Virus record (IMG/VR): IMGVR_UViG_3300037882_000654
Coordinates: 1 to 30,704 of that record
Reading direction: 5' to 3' (one strand)
Source of the DNA: a virus
DNA length: 30,704 nt
Below are positions 1 through 14,812 of this stretch, piece after piece; within the stretch, counting starts at the first letter, position 1, and each line of letters opens with the position of its first letter. The notes beneath the pieces are model-generated. The model was not told the origin of the DNA. It was given only the letters and a program-made list of their open reading frames with translations, and made no database searches. Made by a program: the position numbers and the translations under genes.

Positions 1-3000
1 ATACCAAACATATCTGCAAACTTAACTACAGCAGCGTTATAATCTCCAGGATGTTTCTTTTGGATCTTGTCCCAGTTATCATAAAGCATTGTCATAGTCA
101 TAAAGTTCATCTTGTTTTCAGGATTCTTAATCTTAACAAGAATTTCATTCATTGGTGTTGATGGAGATATACTCTGGAATAGACCACCCAAAACATTTAC
201 CCATCTAGAAATACCTTCTGCATCACTGAATAGTCGATTACGTTCAGCATCACTAGCAAGTGGATTATCTCCATACTTGCCAGTAGAGGCTAGGTAAGAT
301 GCCCAGTCCTTAACACCACGTTGAGTTGTAGCATCGTTACTAAAGAGTGCTGTTGTTGACTTCTTTAACCATGAAGGAAATACAAGATCGTTTAATGTCT
401 TAGGCTCACCAAATGGTGTTATGATATCTCGTACAATATCATCAACGGGACCAAATGTATTTGTTCTACCAGATACTGCGTAAGCAAGAACTGCTGCAGG
501 TCCGAAGCCTGGAACAAGTGGGCTTACAGCACCAAATGCAAGGTTAAGAGACTGTACAGGTGATTCTATCTGTAAAGCGTTACGCATATCAATGTTACGA
601 CCAGCAAGAGCACCTATAAAACTGCCAGCAAGTGGCATTTTAAACTTTAGATCCTGTGAGTTCTCATCACGATATAAGAAGCCTTGGTTGTCATCATATG
701 TCATTCCAGCAACATCATAGATTACATTTGTACCCTCTTTAGTAAGGGAATCAAATGCTTTACCAAATCTGTAAACTGGACGCGGATTAGACCAAGTAAG
801 TTCTGCCCATTTTCCAATAGTGTTATACTGTGCCTGAGCAAACGGTGCTACTAGACGAGCAGCATTAGCCCACTGCTTCTGCCTTGCTGCATCGTAGAAT
901 AGATTCTTAACATAGTTAGTTGCATCTTGTGCTGCCATTGAGTCAAGAGTTTTAAGTGTTGCCCCACCCTTATGAACATAATCAGGATTATTAAGACGCT
1001 TTTTAAGTGCTGACTCAATAGTACGAAGTCCTCCTGGTTTACGACCAAGGATCTTACGACCACCAATTAAATTAGGAGCAAATGCTTTTTGAGCGTTTCT
1101 TTGTAAAGTTTTTAATTCTGCAGTTGGTAGCATGTCTGCGTACCCTGCAATAAAGTCCCAATATGCAGCATCAAATTCAGGACCAAAATTAGTCTTGCTT
1201 TCTACAAACGCTGCAGCGTTAAAGAATGAATCTACAAATGCTCTTCCTTGGCTGGATACACCCTCACCTCTTAATGTTTCAACAACATTGGTTGCTCTAG
1301 AACCAGCCATCTGTTCTGGCTTAAATATAGAGGCAACTTGCTTAGTAAATACTTTTTCCGCAGCAAGAACCTGTTCGGTTGTTAGACCTTTTTGACGATA
1401 AGGTGTTCTTAATTTAATAACTTTACCGCTGCTGGTTGTAACAAGTGCTTCACCATTTTGAATTAAATCTAATGCTATGCTTCTTTGAGCACCTTGTCCT
1501 GCAATAAGGTTTAATTGACCAGCATAACTGTCTGGCTGTGTTTCATCGAATAACCAAGTTAAGATATTCTCTCGGTTCATGTTCTCTTTTACTACTCCAG
1601 CACCAGTTTCTTTGCCTGGGTTAAGGAGTAAAATCTCGCGCATGCCATCATTATCGTCATAAATAGCAGATGCAAAAGCACGAAGTTTATTGTTTGGCTC
1701 ATCAAATGTATTGATTAGGTTATCAACATACTCTGCTTTAGCCTCAGGAGTTCCTCTTTTTAGAACTGCTATGACATCAGATGCAAATCTATCTCCTGAG
1801 AATTGATTAATAGTATAAGATAATGACTTTAAATATTCAGGATGACCTGGTTCAACTACTTCATATGCTTTAAATACACTTAAACTACGTCCTGCTTTAC
1901 CATAATCTGCAGTAGATGATACACGATTAGTGATTGCGTCACGTGAAATTATTGATTGAGAAAATGCAACTTCTGCATCTGTTGATTTCATTAAATCACC
2001 AAGTGCATTTACGCTATATCTAGAACGACCAACAAGAGCCTTCTGGAAAGCATTACCCTCTGGATTTGCAATCATCATTGAGATGAATCCAATAGGACTA
2101 TTAAATAAACTGTTATGTCCAGAGAAGAATTGGCGCATCTGCATTTCTGCAACGTTGCGCAATATGTAAGATACACGGAATACTAACTGTGCTGTACGCC
2201 ATAGGTCTCCAAGTTCTTCAGAAAAAACTTTGAAAGACTTGGCGCTACCATAAAACGGAAGATTAGTTCTGTATCCAATTACCGCTTGGTTAATAGCGCG
2301 TGTATCTGGAAGATTGATGACATCTCTAACTAATTGTGCTTCGTAAATACCTTTTTCAAGGCGAACAGATTTACCACCAGCAACAATAAGACCAGCGCCT
2401 TTGTTCCCAATAACATTATCTAAAGAATAGTTTTTAAATACAACGTCATCTGAACCTTTAAGTTTAGTAAGTTCTTTAAGTTTTATAATATTTTCTGGTG
2501 TAATTGATAGCGTTTTACCAATTTCTCCAATAAGGTTATCAATTCCATTAGATACAGCAGCAGCACGTTCAGCGTTTGTAGTAGCAGCAAAAATGGCTCG
2601 TTGTGTATCGGCAATAATTGTTTCTTGAACGCCCTTTGGGAGAATACGTCTTAATCCAGCAGAACTAATCCAGTCTTCTACACCATTATTAAGACCAGTC
2701 AAATCATTTAGGTTTAATGCTGTTGAACGAATATAGAATCGACCAAATGCCTTGTTGATGTTTTCAGCATACTTAATGGCATCCATATTAACGCCAGGAA
2801 CCATACGAGCAACAGGATTAGTTGCAATCTTTACGCCTGTTGATAGACCCTGCTTTACGGCAAGAGGATCTGCACCTGGTGCAAATTGATTAAGGAATGC
2901 CTTAAATACTTCGTCCTTATTAGTTGCATCTGCAAGTTCTGAAATTAAGTTATCATCTAACTTACGATTAAATAAACGTCTAAGACGAACTTTATCAGTC

Positions 3001-5168
3001 TCTTTTGCAATCAATTCAGCGATAGGCTCAAATTGACGACCAAGAAGGAACTTTAATGGCTTAGAAAAGTCAGTACCAATATTACCCATAAAGTTGTCAG
3101 TTAAACCAACCTTAGATCGTAGTGCTTCTTTAAGGACATTGTTATTGGCAATTTCAAGTTCAAGTTCAAGAAGATTTTTAATACCAACATTATCTGGATC
3201 CTGAATAAGTTCCTTAAGAATCTCTGGATCTTGGTTTGCTTTTTCCTGAACTAATCTAAACCAGTTTTCTCTATCTTCTAGTTCAATTTGCTTAGTGATA
3301 AGATCATCTAATTCATTCCGACGAGCAGCAAGATTAGCCTTGGAATCGGAAAGCGACTGCATTAACTTAGCCATGTTTGGACCTAAGTCAGATGGATCAA
3401 GAATTTCCGCTGCTGCATTACCAATTTCAGCACGTGTGGCTGCAATTTTATTACCATTAGTAATTACAACTCCACCAGTCTCACCGTAAATAGAACGGAT
3501 GTTTGTGAAACCGTCAACTTTCCATATATCTTCGACTAGGCTAGCAATTTTGCTCATGACAATAGGATTATTTACAAGTGCAACTTCACCAATAAGAGTT
3601 CCTAGGCTTTTGCCAGCAACTAATTCGTCACCTACGCCAAATAGAGAGCCGACAAAACCATCTAGATTTGATACTTCATCACGTATATTAGTAGATAGTT
3701 GGTTGTATACTCTAAATTCTGGTTCGCTTACATTCTTGCCTAGTTTATCTAGTTCATCTGCAAGTTTTTGACGATTAGCGCTTTCTTTAAGACGAACTTC
3801 ATCTGATGCGTTAACAAATGTATCAGACATATCAAGAAGATTTAATTTTTCAGTGGAGTTGGCAGTTACTGCATATTCATCTGCCCCGTGTGCTCCAGCG
3901 CTTACCACACCATACTGAGGAATTTCATCAAGAATAGCGTGACCATCAAAGAATCCACCAGTATTCTTCATATCTGCACCAAGACGATCAACCGCTTGGC
4001 TTAATTCACCTGTTTGAGTCTTGGGATTATTAATAAACCAGTTAGCAATACCATTTGGTGATAATGTTTGTTTAACTGTATCGTCTGCAGCCTCAAGAGC
4101 AAAATATTTTGCCTCAGAATTAAGAAGTGTTTCAACGGTTTTAATTTGAGGATCAATTACTTTTTTCTCAGCAGCAATAATATCTCTTTGTTTTTTATTA
4201 ACTTTAGTTGCATAACGCTTAAACTCACTAGAAATCTTTTTATTCTGCTTATCAACTAGAATCTCTCCAGTTTTTTCAAGTTCAGCAATATTCTCATCGT
4301 TAATTCTTTTTGTGCTGGACTTAGTTAAACCCTCAAGTTCATTGGTAAATTTAGTAACTTGCTTACCCTGACCTATAATCTTTGTTACAGCACCAGGTCC
4401 AAACCAAGTTGATGGATCAGTAGCAACGTTAAGTGTTGCATCAAGTATACCGCTCATTGTGCGATAAGCGCTACTTTCAGGATTCATTCCTATGCCGCTG
4501 AATACTCCACGACCTATAGTGTATGATTTACCATTGATAAGTCCATACTCAGCCATTGAACGAGCCTGTGCTTTACCAACCTTGCTTTGAGGTGTGATAA
4601 AGAATCCTTCACCTTGTCCTTTAAGACCACCAGTAACAGATGCTCCACCACGTATGACTTGACCAAGTAAAGTGCTTTCGCTGGCTACACCTAAACCACT
4701 GATAATATCACCAGCGCTAATATCTTCACCACGACTTAATGCTGTTATATTACGTGCTGTTGTTGTAAGAGCGTCATATGGAGAGCGCAAGGCAGCAAAA
4801 GTTAAACGGGTAGCACCTTTAAATGGGTCATAAACAATCTCATCGAATGCATTCTGTACAGAGCCAAGAATACCGCGCTTAGGTTCAACCTTTTTCTTGA
4901 TTTTATCAACAGTAAATGCATCAGTCTTAAGTGCTGCAAGCCCGTCCATTGATGTAATTTTGCCAAGACCAGGAGTATTAACATCGTAGCCTTGGCGAAC
5001 CATTGCTATAACTAAGTCTTTTGACATGCCAGGGTACTTGTTTGAAATAGCGTTAAAGTTACCAAAAGTCTCTGGAGTTATGCTACCCATCTGTGCATCA
5101 ATAAGACGTTGTGCAGGAGTCTTACGAGTTGCAATGGAGTTGGCAATAATGTCTTTAATGTCCGCCAT
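1..5168 (-). CDS. Giant virion-associated protein, partial (C-terminus beyond left edge)
   Basis: The frame is open without a stop from the ATG at 5168 to the left edge, at least 1,722 codons, so the protein is incomplete here. I do not recognise a catalytic domain. It begins MADIKDIIANSIATRKTP, is mostly helical-looking and Ala/Leu/Lys-rich, and has charged coiled-coil-like stretches (for example around 3120-3340). A notable patch near 2110-2220 reads FRVSYILRNVAEMQMRQFF. The start overlaps the upstream stop as TAATG. Its place directly after portal and two small head genes suggests a structural protein: an internal/ejected protein, a MuF-like minor capsid fusion, or less likely a tape measure. 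The existence of the frame is certain; the role is inference. Confidence 0.85.
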   Translation of the reverse strand, partial: MADIKDIIANSIATRKTPAQRLIDAQMGSITPETFGNFNAISNKYPGMSKDLVIAMVRQGYDVNTPGLGKITSMDGLAALKTDAFTVDKIKKKVEPKRGILGSVQNAFDEIVYDPFKGATRLTFAALRSPYDALTTTARNITALSRGEDISAGDIISGLGVASESTLLGQVIRGGASVTGGLKGQGEGFFITPQSKVGKAQARSMAEYGLINGKSYTIGRGVFSGIGMNPESSAYRTMSGILDATLNVATDPSTWFGPGAVTKIIGQGKQVTKFTNELEGLTKSSTKRINDENIAELEKTGEILVDKQNKKISSEFKRYATKVNKKQRDIIAAEKKVIDPQIKTVETLLNSEAKYFALEAADDTVKQTLSPNGIANWFINNPKTQTGELSQAVDRLGADMKNTGGFFDGHAILDEIPQYGVVSAGAHGADEYAVTANSTEKLNLLDMSDTFVNASDEVRLKESANRQKLADELDKLGKNVSEPEFRVYNQLSTNIRDEVSNLDGFVGSLFGVGDELVAGKSLGTLIGEVALVNNPIVMSKIASLVEDIWKVDGFTNIRSIYGETGGVVITNGNKIAATRAEIGNAAAEILDPSDLGPNMAKLMQSLSDSKANLAARRNELDDLITKQIELEDRENWFRLVQEKANQDPEILKELIQDPDNVGIKNLLELELEIANNNVLKEALRSKVGLTDNFMGNIGTDFSKPLKFLLGRQFEPIAELIAKETDKVRLRRLFNRKLDDNLISELADATNKDEVFKAFLNQFAPGADPLAVKQGLSTGVKIATNPVARMVPGVNMDAIKYAENINKAFGRFYIRSTALNLNDLTGLNNGVEDWISSAGLRRILPKGVQETIIADTQRAIFAATTNAERAAAVSNGIDNLIGEIGKTLSITPENIIKLKELTKLKGSDDVVFKNYSLDNVIGNKGAGLIVAGGKSVRLEKGIYEAQLVRDVINLPDTRAINQAVIGYRTNLPFYGSAKSFKVFSEELGDLWRTAQLVFRVSYILRNVAEMQMRQFFSGHNSLFNSPIGFISMMIANPEGNAFQKALVGRSRYSVNALGDLMKSTDAEVAFSQSIISRDAITNRVSSTADYGKAGRSLSVFKAYEVVEPGHPEYLKSLSYTINQFSGDRFASDVIAVLKRGTPEAKAEYVDNLINTFDEPNNKLRAFASAIYDDNDGMREILLLNPGKETGAGVVKENMNRENILTWLFDETQPDSYAGQLNLIAGQGAQRSIALDLIQNGEALVTTSSGKVIKLRTPYRQKGLTTEQVLAAEKVFTKQVASIFKPEQMAGSRATNVVETLRGEGVSSQGRAFVDSFFNAAAFVESKTNFGPEFDAAYWDFIAGYADMLPTAELKTLQRNAQKAFAPNLIGGRKILGRKPGGLRTIESALKKRLNNPDYVHKGGATLKTLDSMAAQDATNYVKNLFYDAARQKQWANAARLVAPFAQAQYNTIGKWAELTWSNPRPVYRFGKAFDSLTKEGTNVIYDVAGMTYDDNQGFLYRDENSQDLKFKMPLAGSFIGALAGRNIDMRNALQIESPVQSLNLAFGAVSPLVPGFGPAAVLAYAVSGRTNTFGPVDDIVRDIITPFGEPKTLNDLVFPSWLKKSTTALFSNDATTQRGVKDWASYLASTGKYGDNPLASDAERNRLFSDAEGISRWVNVLGGLFQSISPSTPMNEILVKIKNPENKMNFMTMTMLYDNWDKIQKKHPGDYNAAVVKFADMFG

Positions 5169-9934: not shown

Positions 9935-10126
9935 AATCATGGCTTGAGTGATTTAATAACCCGCGAGGGTCTACCGCGAGCGACCGAAGGGAGCGAGCGC
10001 GCGTTTTTTTGTGTTGGGGGATATGCGTGGGTTTGTGTTGGGGGTGACTATCTGCGCGGGGCTTCGGGCTTCGGGTCTGTACGGGCTTCCTGTGGCTTTT
10101 TAGGGGTATCCCTGCGGGCTGGGTCT

Positions 10127-10141
10127 GTACGATTATCGTAC
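10127..10141. promoter_or_regulatory. Palindrome copy 1 (GTACGATTATCGTAC)
   Basis: Exact 15-base copy. It ends 26 bases upstream of the -35 box of the promoter at 10168, a position that would suit a regulator of the 10250 gene. Confidence 0.85.
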
Positions 10142-10167
10142 GCTTCAAGACTCGTAATGAAATGGAT

Positions 10168-10196
10168 TTGACTCTAGGGCGGGAAAATGCAATAAT
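10168..10196 (+). promoter_or_regulatory. Sigma-70-type promoter for the 10250 gene
   Basis: The -35 box TTGACT (10168-10173), a 17-bp spacer and the -10 box AATAAT (10191-10196) match the housekeeping consensus at five of six positions each. Transcription would start near 10203, leaving a leader of about 45 bases with AGGAAG before the ATG at 10250. Confidence 0.7.
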
Positions 10197-10249
10197 TCTC
10201 TTAGTGGATATCGGGCAAGGCGCTCGAAGCACTAGGAAGAAAAAACATC

Positions 10250-10864
10250 ATGACTAAGAACACAAGCAAGTCAGGCAAGGCAATTTCATCTCTAGACGCT
10301 GTGAACGTTTCTCTCGTGAAAGACTTTCAAGCGGTACTCAACTTCTCTGGTGAAGTGAACGTTTTCGAGAAGGCGCTCGGCATGTTGAAGGCTGGCACTA
10401 TCTCGGTTCGTGGCTTGAAGGCAACTATCGAGGAAGCAAGCGAGGCAGGTTCTCTGCCAACTATCAAGGCAAGCCACGCACAATACTTTTTACAAGCCGA
10501 GCAGGTTCGCGCTCTATCAGGTGGCAAGGATAAGGCGCTGAAGGATGTTCTTAACGCAACAATTCAAGCCAAGCGTGAGTTTGGCAAGGATTTCGGCAAG
10601 GCTATCGAGGACGCTTCATCCTTCGCGGATTTGGTCGCTAAGACTCCGAAGCAAGGCGAGAAGGCGAAGGCAGGGCGCAAGGCTTCAAGCGCCGAGCCAT
10701 TAGCCAACATGGATGCATATATCGCGCTCTTTCTAGGTGCGAAAGATTTGCAAGATATTCGACCAACTAACGAGGCTCAATGGGTCGAGTTTCTAAGTTT
10801 CGTCAAGGCGATTTCATCAAGCGTCAAGGCGTCACACCCTGCGGGCAAGGCTCTCGTAGGATAA
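10250..10864 (+). CDS. Hypothetical protein, 204 aa
   Basis: Unrecognised. The protein is basic, Ala/Lys/Ser-rich and predicted largely helical, with no CxxC motif, signal peptide or membrane segment. Residues about 130-150 form a Lys/Gly/Ala-rich linker (KQGEKAKAGRKASS) dividing an N-terminal helical domain from a C-terminal one starting near MDAYIALFLGAKDL. The start is set by AGGAAG ten bases upstream. It is monocistronic-looking: own promoter at 10168, 273 bases of gene-free sequence after it, and palindrome copies before the promoter and over its stop codon. High likely expression and basic charge would suit a nucleic-acid-binding protein, possibly one that recognises the palindrome, but no DNA-binding fold is evident. 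Confidence 0.8.
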   Translation: MTKNTSKSGKAISSLDAVNVSLVKDFQAVLNFSGEVNVFEKALGMLKAGTISVRGLKATIEEASEAGSLPTIKASHAQYFLQAEQVRALSGGKDKALKDVLNATIQAKREFGKDFGKAIEDASSFADLVAKTPKQGEKAKAGRKASSAEPLANMDAYIALFLGAKDLQDIRPTNEAQWVEFLSFVKAISSSVKASHPAGKALVG

Positions 10865-10870
10865 TCGTAC
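10856..10870. promoter_or_regulatory. Palindrome copy 2 (one mismatch)
   Basis: GTAGGATAATCGTAC matches the 15-base palindrome (A-centre form) at 14 positions. It covers the last two codons and the TAA stop of the 204-residue gene, so the mismatch may be due to coding constraint or decay. Confidence 0.6.
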
Positions 10871-11048
10871 ACGCGAGGCGCTCGACTCCTTCGGGGGTCG
10901 GGCGCTTTCGCATGTCCGCGCGCCGCGAAAAGTTTGTGTTTGGTTTGTGTCGGTAAAGTTTGTGTCGGGGTCGTAAGTTCAGCCGTAGTCGCCGTTATTA
11001 GTTTGTGTTGGGGGCAGGGGCACAGCCGTAGCCGTTGCCGTTGGGGGC

Positions 11049-11077
11049 TTGACTTAGGCAGCCACATCCCTTATTAT
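11049..11077 (+). promoter_or_regulatory. Sigma-70-type promoter for the amidoligase/WhiB block
   Basis: The -35 box TTGACT (11049-11054), a 17-bp spacer and the -10 box TATTAT (11072-11077). The -35 box is identical to that at 10168. Transcription would begin about 11084, and palindrome copy 3 (11109) lies in the 5' leader, 25 bases downstream. It would drive the gene chain 11138-14762 up to the terminator at 14781. Confidence 0.7.
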
Positions 11078-11108
11078 TAGATAGTGGACATCCTGCCCAC
11101 ACCTAGCC

Positions 11109-11123
11109 GTACGATTATCGTAC
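11109..11123. promoter_or_regulatory. Palindrome copy 3
   Basis: Exact GTACGATTATCGTAC. It lies between the promoter at 11049 and the start codon at 11138, inside the predicted 5' leader. Confidence 0.85.
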
Positions 11124-11137
11124 AGATTGGAAATACA

Positions 11138-11281
11138 ATGTACCTAACAACGTGGGACTTATTAGCAGTTATGATAGCCCTAATCACATCAGTAACACTC
11201 GTCATCACAACGGCTCTTGCTAACGCAAGGCTACAGAAGCGTATCGTTATGTTACGCCGTCAGATTAACGCTGGTCGCTAG
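11138..11281 (+). CDS. Small single-pass membrane protein, 47 aa
   Basis: MYLTTWDLLAVMIALITS begins a hydrophobic segment of about 22 residues (roughly 6-28), followed by a basic cytoplasmic-type tail ending LRRQINAGR. I choose the ATG at 11138, with GGAA about nine bases upstream, because an upstream frame start at 11084 would translate through the palindrome and add a non-hydrophobic extension beginning at the transcription start. It is the first gene after the promoter at 11049. Function unknown; a membrane anchor or phage exclusion-type peptide is possible. Confidence 0.6.
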   Translation: MYLTTWDLLAVMIALITSVTLVITTALANARLQKRIVMLRRQINAGR

Positions 11282-11283
11282 TC

Positions 11284-11430
11284 ATGAAGGCAAGATGTAA
11301 TGAGTGTAGCGTGGTGTTGCGAAGCAGAGAGATTATTGCCAGCAACGACTCAAACTTGCGCTATGAATTTTGCTTTGACTGTCTAGACAAGATGTACGAT
11401 TATCGTACAGTTGGGAAGTGCTACTCATGA
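11284..11430 (+). CDS. Small zinc-ribbon protein, 48 aa
   Basis: Short protein with two CxxC pairs: CNEC near the N-terminus (residues 5-8) and CFDC (about 30-33), spaced as in a zinc ribbon. The gene starts two bases after the previous stop and overlaps the amidoligase start as ATGA at 11427. Palindrome copy 4 is translated in this frame as MYDYRT. Coupling to the amidoligase suggests a shared role or simply shared expression; function unknown. Confidence 0.65.
   Translation: MKARCNECSVVLRSREIIASNDSNLRYEFCFDCLDKMYDYRTVGKCYS
11394..11408. promoter_or_regulatory. Palindrome copy 4
   Basis: Exact GTACGATTATCGTAC within the 3' end of the 48-residue gene and 18 bases before the amidoligase start codon. 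Confidence 0.85.
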
Positions 11431-12959
11431 TTAACCCATACTCATATGGTTGGGGATATGTCGGCATAGGTGACTGTGACAGATGTTGTAACCCTTCACA
11501 CATCTTCGCTCACTCGTACTACAATGAGGGTCATACAAGATGCGAAGGATGTATGGCATCCATGATACAACGCTCAGTTCAGTACAACTCTATTCCTGAG
11601 GAGATGCGTGAAAGCCTGTTGTTATCCGCTAACGACTTGCCTAGCCTATCTCCTGAGAAGTACCCATTTATTGCCGATACGCCTACCTGTGACGCATGCC
11701 AGCGCATGGAAGGTACTGGGCAATACCAGTTCGAAGAAGCACAAGTTATGAACGCAGACAGAACAGCAATACGTACGATTATCGTACACCGCAGATGCAC
11801 AACTGGTTGCTATGACTGTGACGGAGTAATAGCCACCACTAACAACAGGATGAATCCTTACCAAACAGATTGGAGAGTTGCCTACAATGACTTCATTGAC
11901 GTCACCAGAGTGGATGGAGATAATAGATGCGAACCTTGCGCCGTTGTTTACAGAGATGAACGCGGAGCAAGTGACTTCAGTTATTGTGAATCGTGCGATA
12001 GCCAATGGCATGATAGCGAAACACGCTACTATATGGGCGAAAGATACTGCGTTACCTGTATCGAGGAAAACGCGTTCGACTGTGACGACTGTGGTGACGA
12101 GTGCTGGAGTGGTGGCGACCACTACTGTTCTAATGAAGGTGACGACGACGGCTACCGAGAAAACTCACCTATCCACAGTTATTCCTACAGACCTAGCCCT
12201 GCTTTCTTTGGAAAAGGAAAGTATCATCTAGGCTTTGAGTTAGAAGTAGAATCTCGTAACTCACGCTATGAAGGTGCTGAGTTGGCTCAAGAGTTGTTCG
12301 GTGCTCACGTATATCTCAAGGATGACGGCTCACTCAATGACGGCTTCGAGATAGTCACGCATCCGCACACTCTTACGGAGTATCAGACCAACTTTAACTG
12401 GGCTGGTCTGAACAAGTTAAAGATTCAAGGTCTAAGGTCTTGGAATACAAGCACCTGTGGACTTCATGTTCACGTATCACGTGAAGCCTTTTCAGTAGAC
12501 AATGTACGATTATCGTACGACCAACGTATTCTGAAACGTCAGGCTCATGAGTTGCGGTTCATGAAACTTATCTACGACAACGAGCGACAAGTAGGTCGTA
12601 TCGCTGGTCGTAGTAACAACAACTACGCAACCTTCCAAGATAAGGGCAAACTGGTGCGTAAACTCAAGGAAGGTATTCAAGAAAATGGCAGGTACTCTGC
12701 TATCAACACCGAAAATGATGCGACACTAGAAGTGCGAGTATTTAAGGGTTCACTCAGACCTGAACGTGTACTCTCTGCTCTTGAGTTCGTTACTGCTTCG
12801 GTAGAATACACTCGCGACCTGCCTATCAACGGCAAGAATAATGCTCTCACATGGCTACGCTTTACAGGCTATGTTGCTGAGCATGCTGAAACCTATCCGA
12901 ATCTAGCACTCATTATGAACGAATCGTTCAATAGTGATTACCCAGCCCAGCAAGACTAA
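11427..12959 (+). CDS. Amidoligase-like protein with N-terminal zinc-ribbon array, 510 aa
   Basis: The C-terminal half resembles the putative amidoligase (COOH-NH2 ligase, glutamine-synthetase-like fold) family: GFELEVESR near residue 269, KDDGSLNDGFEIVTHP near 300, CGLHVHVSREAF near 343-354 and TLEVRVFKGSLR near 432. These correspond to the family's conserved acidic, His and Arg positions for ATP/metal and substrate binding. The first ~230 residues carry about eight Cys pairs (CDRCC, CEGC, CDAC, CYDC, CEPC, CESC, CVTC, CDDC), suggesting serial zinc ribbons or treble clefs. Start at the ATGA overlap (11427), with GGGAAG upstream. The next gene is a glutamine amidotransferase, the known partner type. 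Substrate unknown. Two palindrome copies lie inside. Confidence 0.78.
   Translation: MINPYSYGWGYVGIGDCDRCCNPSHIFAHSYYNEGHTRCEGCMASMIQRSVQYNSIPEEMRESLLLSANDLPSLSPEKYPFIADTPTCDACQRMEGTGQYQFEEAQVMNADRTAIRTIIVHRRCTTGCYDCDGVIATTNNRMNPYQTDWRVAYNDFIDVTRVDGDNRCEPCAVVYRDERGASDFSYCESCDSQWHDSETRYYMGERYCVTCIEENAFDCDDCGDECWSGGDHYCSNEGDDDGYRENSPIHSYSYRPSPAFFGKGKYHLGFELEVESRNSRYEGAELAQELFGAHVYLKDDGSLNDGFEIVTHPHTLTEYQTNFNWAGLNKLKIQGLRSWNTSTCGLHVHVSREAFSVDNVRLSYDQRILKRQAHELRFMKLIYDNERQVGRIAGRSNNNYATFQDKGKLVRKLKEGIQENGRYSAINTENDATLEVRVFKGSLRPERVLSALEFVTASVEYTRDLPINGKNNALTWLRFTGYVAEHAETYPNLALIMNESFNSDYPAQQD
11773..11787. promoter_or_regulatory. Palindrome copy 5 (inside amidoligase gene)
   Basis: Exact GTACGATTATCGTAC, read in the amidoligase frame as part of RTIIVH, in the zinc-ribbon region. 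Confidence 0.85.
12504..12518. promoter_or_regulatory. Palindrome copy 6 (inside amidoligase gene)
   Basis: Exact GTACGATTATCGTAC, read as VRLSY, a different reading phase from copy 5. It lies just after the HVHVS motif of the catalytic domain. Confidence 0.85.
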
Positions 12960-12961
12960 TC

Positions 12962-12976
12962 GTACGATAATCGTAC
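12962..12976. promoter_or_regulatory. Palindrome copy 7
   Basis: Exact A-centre form GTACGATAATCGTAC in the 33-base gap between the amidoligase stop and the amidotransferase start. Confidence 0.85.
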
Positions 12977-12992
12977 AGAAAGCAGGTATGTA

Positions 12993-13823
12993 ATGTGTAT
13001 GTTATGTGTAATTCCGCCAAATGTAATACCAAGTCGAGCAAAGTTAGAGAACAGCGCTCTGAATAATCCGCATGGCTTTGGCTTTGCGATAGTTATTCCT
13101 AACGAGAATCGTATCCACGCTGAACGCACTATGAACGCGGATACTTCTATCAACCGCTTCTTGGAAATGCGCGCGAAGTACCCTGAAGGTTACGCCATGT
13201 GGCATGCTCGTTGGGCTACTCATGGTGCAACAACTATCGAAAATTGCCATCCGTTCAAGGTTGGTGGTGACGACCAAACCTATCTAGCGCACAATGGCAT
13301 CTTGCCTATCCATGAGCCAAAGGGTGATACTCGTAGCGATACGCGTATCTTTGCTGAGGACTTGCTTCCTGCTATCGGTGGCGTTCCGTCACTAGATAAC
13401 GAGCAGGTAGTAAATCTAATCGAGGACTTCACATCAGGTTCTAAGGTGTGCGTACTCACAGTAGACCCACGCGCTAAGTACCAGTGCTACCTTATCCATG
13501 AGGAGAAAGGTAACGTAGATGAATCAGGTGTGTGGTGGTCTAATGACTCATGCGAGTTAGAACGCTACAACACATGGAAAACAGTTAGTCCACATGACTT
13601 TGGACTCTATGCCAAAGATGATGAGGAAAGTTATATTGACTGCGGTGTCTGTGACTTAGTGTTACCTGTTGAGGACATGCTTAACGAGTTCTGTCCACAA
13701 TGCGGGTCATGCTGGGACTGTCGTGCCTATGTGAGTGACTGTCTATGTTACTCAGGTGCTAACAAGGCGTACGATTATCGTACACCTACAACAACTTGGG
13801 AGAAAGGTGGGTGGGGCTGGTGA
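12993..13823 (+). CDS. Class-II glutamine amidotransferase (Ntn hydrolase) with C-terminal zinc ribbon, 276 aa
   Basis: Predicted to release ammonia from glutamine for a partner synthetase. The class-II features are visible: an N-terminal MC (Cys2 nucleophile after Met removal), NPHGFGFAI (about 25-33), the HARWATHG motif (71-78; Arg binds glutamine), NCHPF (84-88) and AHNGIL (99-104, Asn/Gly oxyanion hole). The start at 12993 is fixed by the need for Cys2 and by GCAGG six bases upstream. After the catalytic domain a C-terminal extension (about 211-247) holds CGVC, CPQC, CWDC and CLC, a zinc-binding domain not found in standard amidotransferases. The neighbour upstream is the amidoligase. The stop overlaps the next start as GTGA. 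Confidence 0.88.
   Translation: MCMLCVIPPNVIPSRAKLENSALNNPHGFGFAIVIPNENRIHAERTMNADTSINRFLEMRAKYPEGYAMWHARWATHGATTIENCHPFKVGGDDQTYLAHNGILPIHEPKGDTRSDTRIFAEDLLPAIGGVPSLDNEQVVNLIEDFTSGSKVCVLTVDPRAKYQCYLIHEEKGNVDESGVWWSNDSCELERYNTWKTVSPHDFGLYAKDDEESYIDCGVCDLVLPVEDMLNEFCPQCGSCWDCRAYVSDCLCYSGANKAYDYRTPTTTWEKGGWGW
13769..13783. promoter_or_regulatory. Palindrome copy 8 (inside amidotransferase gene)
   Basis: Exact GTACGATTATCGTAC near the 3' end of the amidotransferase, read as YDYRT, the same phase as copy 4. Confidence 0.85.
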
Positions 13824-14008
13824 TACACACAAGTGAAATCATGAACGCTCTTATCAGCGCAGGTCTAACGTATTCACCTGAAGCGGGAGACCCATATCCA
13901 ATGCGAGGAAAGCCATGTGCTGAAGTCGCTACTATCGTAGCCGAGTTCCTTGCTAGTCATGGTGTTGCTGTTTATCATGATGTACCAAACGAGGTGCGTC
14001 ATGGGTAA
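13820..14008 (+). CDS. Hypothetical protein, 62 aa
   Basis: Unrecognised small protein reading (M)IHTSEIMNALISAGLTY and ending PNEVRHG. I choose the GTG at 13820, which overlaps the amidotransferase stop as GTGA and is preceded by a G-rich ribosome site (GGTGGGTGGGG). An upstream start at 13796 would overlap the amidotransferase further. No membrane segment or Cys motif. It is followed by a CATGGGTAA overlap with the next gene, so the chain is translationally coupled. Confidence 0.55.
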   Translation: MIHTSEIMNALISAGLTYSPEAGDPYPMRGKPCAEVATIVAEFLASHGVAVYHDVPNEVRHG

Positions 14009-14192
14009 GCCAACTCCGTACTATTACGGCGTACGCGCCGAGTTATTCCTTCATGATGCTGAACGAGCATTAAGTGAGGGAAAGAAAGAAGAACACGCAA
14101 CCCTAATGCTGCGAGCCACGCAGTATCAGCAACTGGCAGGACAACTGCCACTAGAGGAAGGTCTACATGACCAAACACTACATAGAGCGTAA
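14001..14192 (+). CDS. Hypothetical protein, 63 aa
   Basis: Unrecognised helical protein (MGKPTPYYYGVRAELFLHDA at the start, then Glu/Lys-rich, ending LHDQTLHRA). I choose the ATG at 14001, with GAGGTG five bases upstream; the longer frame from 13950 would add an unlikely hydrophobic N-terminus lying wholly inside the previous gene. Overlaps its neighbours on both sides. The middle (LSEGKKEEHATLMLRATQYQ) looks like a helical hairpin. Function unknown. Confidence 0.55.
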   Translation: MGKPTPYYYGVRAELFLHDAERALSEGKKEEHATLMLRATQYQQLAGQLPLEEGLHDQTLHRA

Positions 14193-14328
14193 TTGCTACT
14201 CATGCGATATTGACCTAATGGTCGTATCACATGATGTTAGTGAGCGCTACTACTGTAATACTTGCGCATGGGCTAAGTTCTCTGTGCCGTACGATAATCG
14301 TACAGTTCAGGGGGCTTCCCATGAGTGA
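14167..14328 (+). CDS. Small zinc-ribbon protein, 53 aa
   Basis: Two CxxC pairs, CYSC (residues 10-13) and CNTC (about 30-33), give a zinc-ribbon pattern. AGGAAGG lies about six bases before the ATG. It overlaps the end of the previous gene and the start of WhiB. Palindrome copy 9 lies in its C-terminal codons (VPYDNRTV). Possibly a DNA- or protein-binding accessory; function unknown. Confidence 0.6.
   Translation: MTKHYIERNCYSCDIDLMVVSHDVSERYYCNTCAWAKFSVPYDNRTVQGASHE
14289..14303. promoter_or_regulatory. Palindrome copy 9
   Basis: Exact A-centre form GTACGATAATCGTAC, 17 bases before the WhiB start codon and inside the end of the 53-residue gene. Confidence 0.85.
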
Positions 14329-14650
14329 TTATTACCCTAGTTTCACTAATCCGTCTGCCTGTGCTGACCATGACCCAGACTTATGGTTTCCACAGGAAAA
14401 AAGCGGTACAAGAAACTGGACACGTACACCTGACGCCATCAGGGCACGAACAATATGTGCTTCATGCCCTGCTAGGCTTGAGTGCTATGACTATTCAATT
14501 AAGTTAAGAAACCTTTATGGTATCTGGGCTGGGTTGGATAAGTATGAGCGTCATGAAATACAAGATGAACAAGGAATAGAAACTACTGAGATGGTGAACA
14601 CCTTCACCTTCTCTGCCTTTCACGATAGGAACGCTAACCATGAAGAATAA
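14321..14650 (+). CDS. whiB: WhiB-family [4Fe-4S] transcriptional regulator, 109 aa
   Basis: WhiB-like proteins bind an iron-sulphur cluster and regulate transcription, commonly through the host primary sigma factor. The four cluster cysteines are present: C14, C46, C49 and C55, the last three as CASCPARLEC, and ACADHDPDLWFP and YGIWAGLD match the family. The turn motif usually written G[V/I]WGG is GIWAG here (67-71). The short, non-basic C-terminus lacks the usual Arg/Lys-rich DNA-binding tail, as in some phage members that act by competing for sigma. Start at 14321, with AGGGGG seven bases upstream. It strongly indicates an actinobacterial host. Confidence 0.93.
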   Translation: MSDYYPSFTNPSACADHDPDLWFPQEKSGTRNWTRTPDAIRARTICASCPARLECYDYSIKLRNLYGIWAGLDKYERHEIQDEQGIETTEMVNTFTFSAFHDRNANHEE

Positions 14651-14762
14651 AGACGAGTATGAATACTTTACCGAAAGTATCGGAGAGCAACTCATGCTTA
14701 TTCTTTGGACTAGCATAGGTACGCTTGCCGTTGTAGGCATGATACTATCGGTAGCAATGTAG
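14640..14762 (+). CDS. Small membrane protein, 40 aa
   Basis: MKNKDEYEYFTESIGEQLML is a charged N-terminus leading into a hydrophobic segment of about 22 residues to the end (LILWTSIGTLAVVGMILSVAM). It starts inside the end of WhiB and is the last gene before the terminator. A single C-terminal membrane anchor is the only visible feature. Function unknown. Confidence 0.5.
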   Translation: MKNKDEYEYFTESIGEQLMLILWTSIGTLAVVGMILSVAM

Positions 14763-14763
14763 T

Positions 14764-14778
14764 GTACGATTATCGTAC
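14764..14778. promoter_or_regulatory. Palindrome copy 10
   Basis: Exact GTACGATTATCGTAC between the last gene of the rightward block and the terminator, two bases before the terminator stem. Confidence 0.85.
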
Positions 14779-14780
14779 AG

Positions 14781-14812
14781 CCCCCTTACGCTTCGCGCGT
14801 AGGGGGGTTTTT
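14781..14812 (+). terminator. Strong rho-independent terminator of the rightward block
   Basis: Stem CCCCCTTACGC / GCGTAGGGGGG (11 bp with one G-T pair), loop TTCGC, then a run of six T or more. It ends transcription from the promoter at 11049. The convergent gene at 14786-14953 uses the stem sequence for its last codons, so the two blocks meet with no spacing. Confidence 0.88.

Follow-up and report, generated by a model that had tools for sequence, protein, structure and literature searches.

Phage genes for an amidoligase and a class II glutamine amidotransferase are annotated side by side in mycobacteriophage Marvin (gp105 and gp106) and its cluster, and later papers attribute the proposal that such genes modify the wall or peptides to Iyer et al. 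2009. The pair has also been reported in OM43 phages (PMC10580990), and podovirus cassettes (LUZ24-like and phiEco32-like; PMC3890496, PMC5498523) carry an amidoligase next to or near a class II amidotransferase. Wall modification has been suggested for these phage genes (PMC10580990, PMC5498523). Here we analyzed a window of 30,704 nucleotides (nt), positions 1 to 30,704 of IMG/VR virus record IMGVR_UViG_3300037882_000654, in which such a pair lies within a rightward operon at 10127-14809. The preliminary description of this stretch had called the pair a candidate undescribed modification system, a claim that does not hold in view of Marvin, its cluster and the OM43 phages; the enzyme pair itself is of a known kind. 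The novel part of the locus is an array of palindromes together with a regulator gene, both of which had gone unremarked. We consider it probable that the operon codes for an amidating enzyme of two parts that depends on glutamine and is controlled by a dedicated regulator, which would bind the array and switch specificity together with it.

In Marvin and its cluster, as in the window, the amidoligase and amidotransferase genes are adjacent near one genome end, and in Marvin they are also co-oriented. Both Marvin enzymes likewise have Cys-rich modules, and the identity to the window proteins is about 35%, both in the ligase domain and across 92% of the amidotransferase. Unlike the window, Marvin has fewer Cys pairs in the ligase, and no repeated palindrome was found at its locus. 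The OM43 phages MEP401 and MEP402, whose amidoligases are 27 to 28% identical to that of the window, also have the amidoligase beside or near a class II amidotransferase, and the two genes are adjacent and co-oriented in MEP402. Further members of the podovirus cassettes are COOH-NH2 ligase, ATP-grasp and AIG2/GGCT proteins, which were not seen in the window; no ATP-grasp or gamma-glutamyl cyclotransferase was found among the window proteins scanned, which are a subset of the open reading frames (ORFs) of a contig that is itself a fragment. The window phage probably belongs to a group infecting freshwater low-GC actinobacteria, as judged from its nearest terminase relatives, its whiB gene and its G+C content. 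By terminase, the nearest phage records are OX376640.1 and OX376641.1 (58%), which are unannotated and labelled Caudovirales sp. ct2KA10, and neither has a detectable amidoligase. With the window pair, a phage modification system that is known but uncharacterised is now seen in a group related to phages of freshwater actinobacteria.

Repeated sites comparable to the array have been described in two other phage clusters. Cluster A stoperators are 13-base-pair (bp) sites found genome-wide in 20 to 30 copies, mostly in one orientation, in temperate phages (PMC6550527). Like the window array, they are many copies of a short site along transcribed DNA, and their consensus tracks the regulator between lineages. 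The window family differs from Cluster A in having palindromes of 15 to 16 bp in free orientation, in about 3 to 10 copies confined to one operon, and an unrelated regulator, and no integration or partition gene was found. Cluster K phages have start-associated sequences (SAS) with extended inverted repeats whose consensus differs between subclusters; the SAS contain an asymmetric 13-bp core with a Shine-Dalgarno sequence, and no cognate protein was known (PMC3203893). The window palindromes resemble the SAS in lying just before start codons and in having a consensus that varies between groups. Unlike the SAS, they stand before the Shine-Dalgarno region, lack such a core and also occur inside genes, and a covarying protein has been identified.

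The window array consists of nine exact copies and one near copy of GTACGAT-W-ATCGTAC, compared with 0.44 expected by chance when three mismatches are allowed. All ten copies lie within 10127-14778, in one operon and nowhere else in the contig, and the arrays in long relatives are likewise confined to this cassette. The first putative operator (GTACGATTATCGTAC, 10127-10141) is 108 nt before the regulator start, and the second (10856-10870), which has one mismatch, lies over the regulator stop codon. Operators 3 (11109-11123), 4 (11394-11408), 7 (12962-12976) and 9 (14289-14303) stand 14, 18, 16 and 17 nt, respectively, before the starts of a small membrane gene, the amidoligase, the amidotransferase and whiB. 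Operators 5 (11773-11787) and 6 (12504-12518) are inside the amidoligase gene, operator 8 (13769-13783) is near the 3' end of the amidotransferase gene, and operator 10 (14764-14778) lies between the last gene and the terminator. The position of operator 7 is the most conserved: of 46 loci, 37 contain a site located 13 to 22 nt ahead of the amidotransferase start, with a mode of 16. A site in the position of operator 9 is present in 25 of 43 loci, and one close relative, L008, has a GTTAGGA-type site at the place matching operator 6.

The palindrome takes one form per genome, changed in all copies together, and about a dozen forms occur across the lineages. The half-sites in relatives are GTTAGGA, GGTCGGA, GTTCGGA, GTCTGAT, GTGCGAT, GTACGGA, GCAGGAT, GTAGGAT, GTTGGAT, GTTTGGA, GCTCGGA and GGTAGGA, with GTGGGGA in a later set. 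At the site before the amidotransferase, the flanking bases are conserved on both sides while the palindrome core switches. The central base on the sense strand is T in 166 cases and A in 99, so the sites can face either way; this freedom would be expected if a dimer bound DNA, but not if the centre formed the loop of an RNA hairpin.

It could be proposed that the palindromes are RNA hairpins which control translation near start codons, like the Cluster K start-associated repeats, and are not DNA operators. The location of sites 13 to 22 nt before the amidotransferase start in most loci would fit such a role, as would the inverted repeats upstream of start-associated repeats in Cluster K phages (PMC3203893). 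On the other hand, T and A both occur at the centre of a given site on the sense strand (19 versus 15 before the amidotransferase), one copy breaks the symmetry without a compensating change, and the specificity follows a protein helix. Several sites also lie within genes, ahead of the promoter or beyond the last gene. We therefore regard hairpins as improbable. The palindromes were also considered as -10 promoter elements, and this idea was rejected since a TACGAT match is present only in some operator types.

The protein with that helix is encoded by the first gene of the operon (10250-10864, plus strand), has 204 amino acids (aa) and belongs to no known family. No match to it was found in Pfam, PHROG or PDB, and no homologue in any phage record searched. 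A family profile finds the protein in 40 loci, including the window. It is present in 40 of the 40 loci in which there is an array and the region is held, and in no locus without an array; the seven arrays without the gene lie on contigs that end within 1 kb upstream of the amidoligase. The structure model of the protein has confident helices at residues 53-66 and 74-87, the second of which is the predicted recognition helix. We infer that the first-gene protein is a dimeric, autoregulating DNA-binding regulator that switches specificity. Since the gene adjoins terL, it may instead be a ParB-like partition protein or a TerS-like packaging protein, with the palindromes as centromere or pac sites; some plasmid-phage centromeres have several dispersed palindromes. 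This appears quite unlikely to us, as no ParA-type ATPase was found in 17 records and the sites are spread through one operon, often at gene starts, which neither role requires.

The association between regulator and operator was followed on trees. The regulator tree requires 9 changes of operator type, which is the minimum for 10 types, whereas the amidotransferase tree for the same 32 taxa requires 14. The terminase tree gives 11 changes versus 9 on the regulator tree for matched taxa. The clearest regulator/operator swap is L008, whose terminase and amidotransferase are 86% and 83% identical to those of the window but whose regulator is only 23% identical, and all eight operators of L008 are of the GTTAGGA type, like those of the distant L017, L029 and L030. 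WhiB and the small genes were considered as the switching regulator and rejected, since in L008 they are 58 to 92% like those of the window while the first gene is replaced.

Residues of the predicted recognition helix follow the half-site. Gln78-Tyr79 is present in 18 of 18 GTACGAT regulators, among which the identity is as low as 18%, and HAQD is found with G(T/C)AGGAT, HAPH with GTTGGAT, YANY with GTTAGGA and WRSY with GGTCGGA. Nine of the 18 GTACGAT proteins, together with one GTTAGGA and one GTACGGA protein, were held out, as they came from a later search and were not used in spotting the pattern; one further new regulator from that search did not have its helix covered. Gln78 is the best single column for GTAC half-sites, being correct in 44 of 47 proteins.

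In the mechanism that we propose, a regulator dimer would bind the 15-bp palindrome, of which this operon alone has about ten copies, and the array-bound regulator would autoregulate the operon. That it turns the operon down, possibly via bridging of sites, is a guess, and activation is also possible. The recognition helix and all operators would have changed together many times, producing distinct specificity groups.

Several observations weigh against this interpretation. When the overall protein distance is controlled, the correlation between helix distance and operator distance is modest (partial r 0.17, a value reached in 4 of 2000 permutations), and in this test some columns elsewhere in the protein score above the helix. 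The model of the first-gene protein has no fold match in PDB, and the term helix-turn-helix therefore rests on the predicted helices 53-66 and 74-87 and on the covariation. Operator 1 lies ahead of the -35 box, a position compatible with both activation and repression. The close relatives are all uncultured contigs. No integrase, resolvase or ParA (PF00589, PF00239 and PF13614) was found in 17 records, several of which are about 40 kb and possibly incomplete, and a classical lysogeny repressor is therefore not supported. Planktophila phages E7 and F5 are lytic (PMC10202952). If the phages of the window family do not lysogenise, immunity-like diversification of operators would be unexpected.

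Taken with these points, the regulator-operator association appears strong, and the exact contact residues are less certain. We see about an even chance that the amidation operon is controlled via dispersed palindromes by phage DNA-binding regulators of an unrecognised family, with repeated joint switching of specificity, immunity-like groups without detected lysogeny genes, and a partly readable code in which Gln78-Tyr79 goes with GTAC half-sites. The array offers a series of natural operator specificities, about a dozen in number, which occupy equivalent positions in related genomes. With this series, the way in which protein-DNA specificity evolves can be tested directly using unmodified natural proteins and short DNA, and so can the evolution of immunity-like groups in apparently non-integrating phages.

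The enzymes of the operon are encoded on the plus strand by the amidoligase gene (11427-12959, ATG at 11427, 510 aa) and the class II glutamine amidotransferase gene (12993-13823, 276 aa). The two genes are adjacent and co-oriented in 62 of 63 viral relatives, and the lone exception is cut by a contig end. In bacterial genomes we found 31 more distant amidoligases, with a detectable amidotransferase beside the ligase in 23 of the 31 loci. The residues from which the preliminary description had recognized an amidoligase and an N-terminal nucleophile (Ntn) amidotransferase in adjacent genes are all in place: GFELEVE at residue 269, CGLHVHVSR at 344 and LEVRVF at 434 of the amidoligase, and MCMLC at residue 1, HARWATHG at 71 and AHNGI at 99 of the amidotransferase. 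Its family assignments were also borne out by Pfam. The amidoligase matches Amidoligase_2 (E=4.6e-5, 23.8 bits, cut-off 22), as do 39 of 40 relatives (E<=0.01), and the amidotransferase matches GATase_4 above the cut-off (E=4e-6), with GATase_6 below its own cut-off. A Pfam match of the amidotransferase is found in 38 of 38 relatives, and the family profile matches GlmS and PurF.

The residues G269, E271, E273, D300, E308, G345, H347, H349, R352, E435 and R437 are invariant in 40 amidoligase sequences, and the active-site motifs ExE (E271/E273), GxHxHxS-type (G345/H347/H349) and ExR (E435/R437) are all present. In glutamine synthetase, the GxHxHxS-type and ExR motifs mark the nucleotide and substrate sites. 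A structure model of the amidoligase, built from 36 relatives (predicted local distance difference test score, 82.5), has 20 PDB matches at E<=0.001 (Foldseek probability, 0.99-1.00), which include glutamine synthetases, YbdK-type ligases, GmaS, the Pup ligase PafA and the depupylase Dop; the amidoligase fold expected for the larger protein was thus recovered. The whole-chain template modeling (TM) scores are low, at about 0.25, owing to differences in the N-terminal Cys-rich part and in domain packing, and we therefore claim the glutamine synthetase fold for the ligase domain only (residues ~250-505). In the amidotransferase, M1-C2, which places the nucleophile Cys2 straight after the initiator Met, is invariant in 38 sequences, as are the glutamine-site residues R73, H77-G78, N101-G102 and D116. 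Since the catalytic residues are conserved, both enzymes look active.

From an adjacent, active-looking pair it follows that glutamine hydrolysis, ammonia transfer and ATP-driven amidation of a carboxylate are the most likely activity, as far as sequence can indicate. The amidotransferase would hydrolyse glutamine and hand the ammonia to the glutamine-synthetase-fold amidoligase, which would activate a carboxylate with ATP to form the amide. Two candidate natural fusions of the enzymes were considered and not accepted. In L048 (2446-4026), the in-frame join drops the amidoligase C terminus and the amidotransferase N terminus with Cys2, which points to a deletion or an assembly join. In L122, the frame is open through both enzymes, but there is an internal Met-Cys start and the linker is doubtful, and this fusion was not counted.

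Both enzymes carry Cys-rich extensions. The amidoligase has exactly eight CxxC pairs, where about eight had been noted before, at residues 17, 39, 88, 128, 168, 187, 208 and 219 (spanning 17-222), and the C-terminal Cys-rich tail of the amidotransferase is at 217-252; both are conserved across the family in alignments of relatives. The extra zinc-ribbon domains that had been proposed for both proteins stand as zinc-type extensions, but not as a single domain in the ligase, whose N-terminal part looks like several tandem zinc-ribbon or LIM-like modules. Judging by Cys/His spacing, the Cys pairs of both proteins probably bind zinc, and the modules would probably hold the two subunits together or attach both to one macromolecular target. 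The number of Cys modules in the ligase varies among distant relatives.

The target would most likely be a carboxylate on a peptide or protein encountered in the cytoplasm, a category that includes cell-wall precursors. It is possible, at well below even chances, that the pair amidates peptidoglycan precursors (D-isoglutamate or meso-diaminopimelate carboxylates) and alters the wall to exclude other phages, as suggested for phiEco32-type phages. This idea has been published for such phage genes (PMC10580990, PMC5498523), and it is consistent with two small membrane peptides within the same operon and with a secreted-looking protein just upstream of the pair in distant relatives. However, the ATP-grasp and gamma-glutamyl cyclotransferase partners of the podovirus cassettes are missing among the proteins scanned, the Cys-rich modules look intracellular, and nothing in the data specifically indicates the wall. 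A second tentative proposal, to which we give similar weight, is that the pair modifies a host or phage protein or nucleic acid gripped by the zinc modules, such as the transcription or translation machinery. The family-conserved eight CxxC pairs and Cys-rich tail would suit a macromolecular target, and the fold matches include PafA and Dop, two enzymes that act on carboxylates of proteins. The same fold nevertheless serves small-molecule ligases, the best matches being glutamine synthetases and YbdK, and the variable Cys modules are entirely lacking in a C. difficile phage relative. That relative (L071, 3671-5860, Clostridioides phage AR1086-1) has an RlaP-type RNA-repair nucleotidyltransferase as the neighbour of its amidoligase, in place of the amidotransferase.

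A distant group of loci (L053, L054, L056, L058, L060, L062 and L063) is without the array and the regulator. In these loci, the secreted-looking protein of ~145 aa is encoded directly before the pair, ~0.5 kb upstream of the amidoligase, and no Pfam match was found for it in the two tested.

The operon is the one clear rightward gene block of the contig and is flanked by a leftward terL and a leftward sigma factor gene. Its remaining genes are all on the plus strand. Between the regulator and the amidoligase are a small predicted membrane peptide of 47 aa (11138-11281), in which a hydrophobic stretch was read directly and no family was found, and a small Cys-rich protein of 48 aa with CNEC...CFDC (11284-11430), which has no family above cut-off. 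The amidotransferase is followed by a small protein of unassigned function (13820-14008), the start of which overlaps the amidotransferase stop, a conserved small protein of 63 aa (14001-14192) with a homologue in 48 loci and no Pfam match, and a conserved small Cys-rich protein of 53 aa with CYSC...CNTC (14167-14328), also with a homologue in 48 loci. The last genes encode a WhiB-like transcription factor of 109 aa (14321-14650; Pfam Whib, 6.9e-15) and a small predicted membrane peptide of 40 aa (14640-14762), and a predicted intrinsic terminator with a 13-pair stem and then a T run is at 14779-14809. Elsewhere in the contig, a single ORF of >1,700 codons on the minus strand (3-5168) runs off the contig start, and the portal and terminase genes adjoin it; this ORF perhaps encodes a large internal virion protein.

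The regulator gene is preceded by a predicted sigma-70-type promoter, TTGACT-17-AATAAT (10168-10196, plus strand), which matches 10 of 12 consensus positions. A TTGAC-type -35 element followed by an ATAAT/ATGAT-like -10 element is also found upstream of most relatives' regulator genes. Operator 1 is just upstream of the promoter in the window; in other relatives, the equivalent site is within the leader before the start codon. The leader (10196-10241, plus strand) contains an RNA hairpin preceded by ATTCTCTTA, which is boxA-like. The equivalent leaders of 14 relatives have 10 pairs with 97% of cells paired and 6 pairs changed on both sides, a covariation score that was reached in 0 of 500 shuffles, and the window leader folds similarly. 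The hairpin and ATTCTCTTA are a possible nut-like antitermination or attenuation element. The loop region of the hairpin contains a conserved GCGAAYGUC, in the window and in equivalents in L006-L065. Short G/T-rich repeats (GTTTGTGTTGGGG-like) flank the regulator gene at 10001-10044 and 10929-11014 in the window, and also in L032 and L047.

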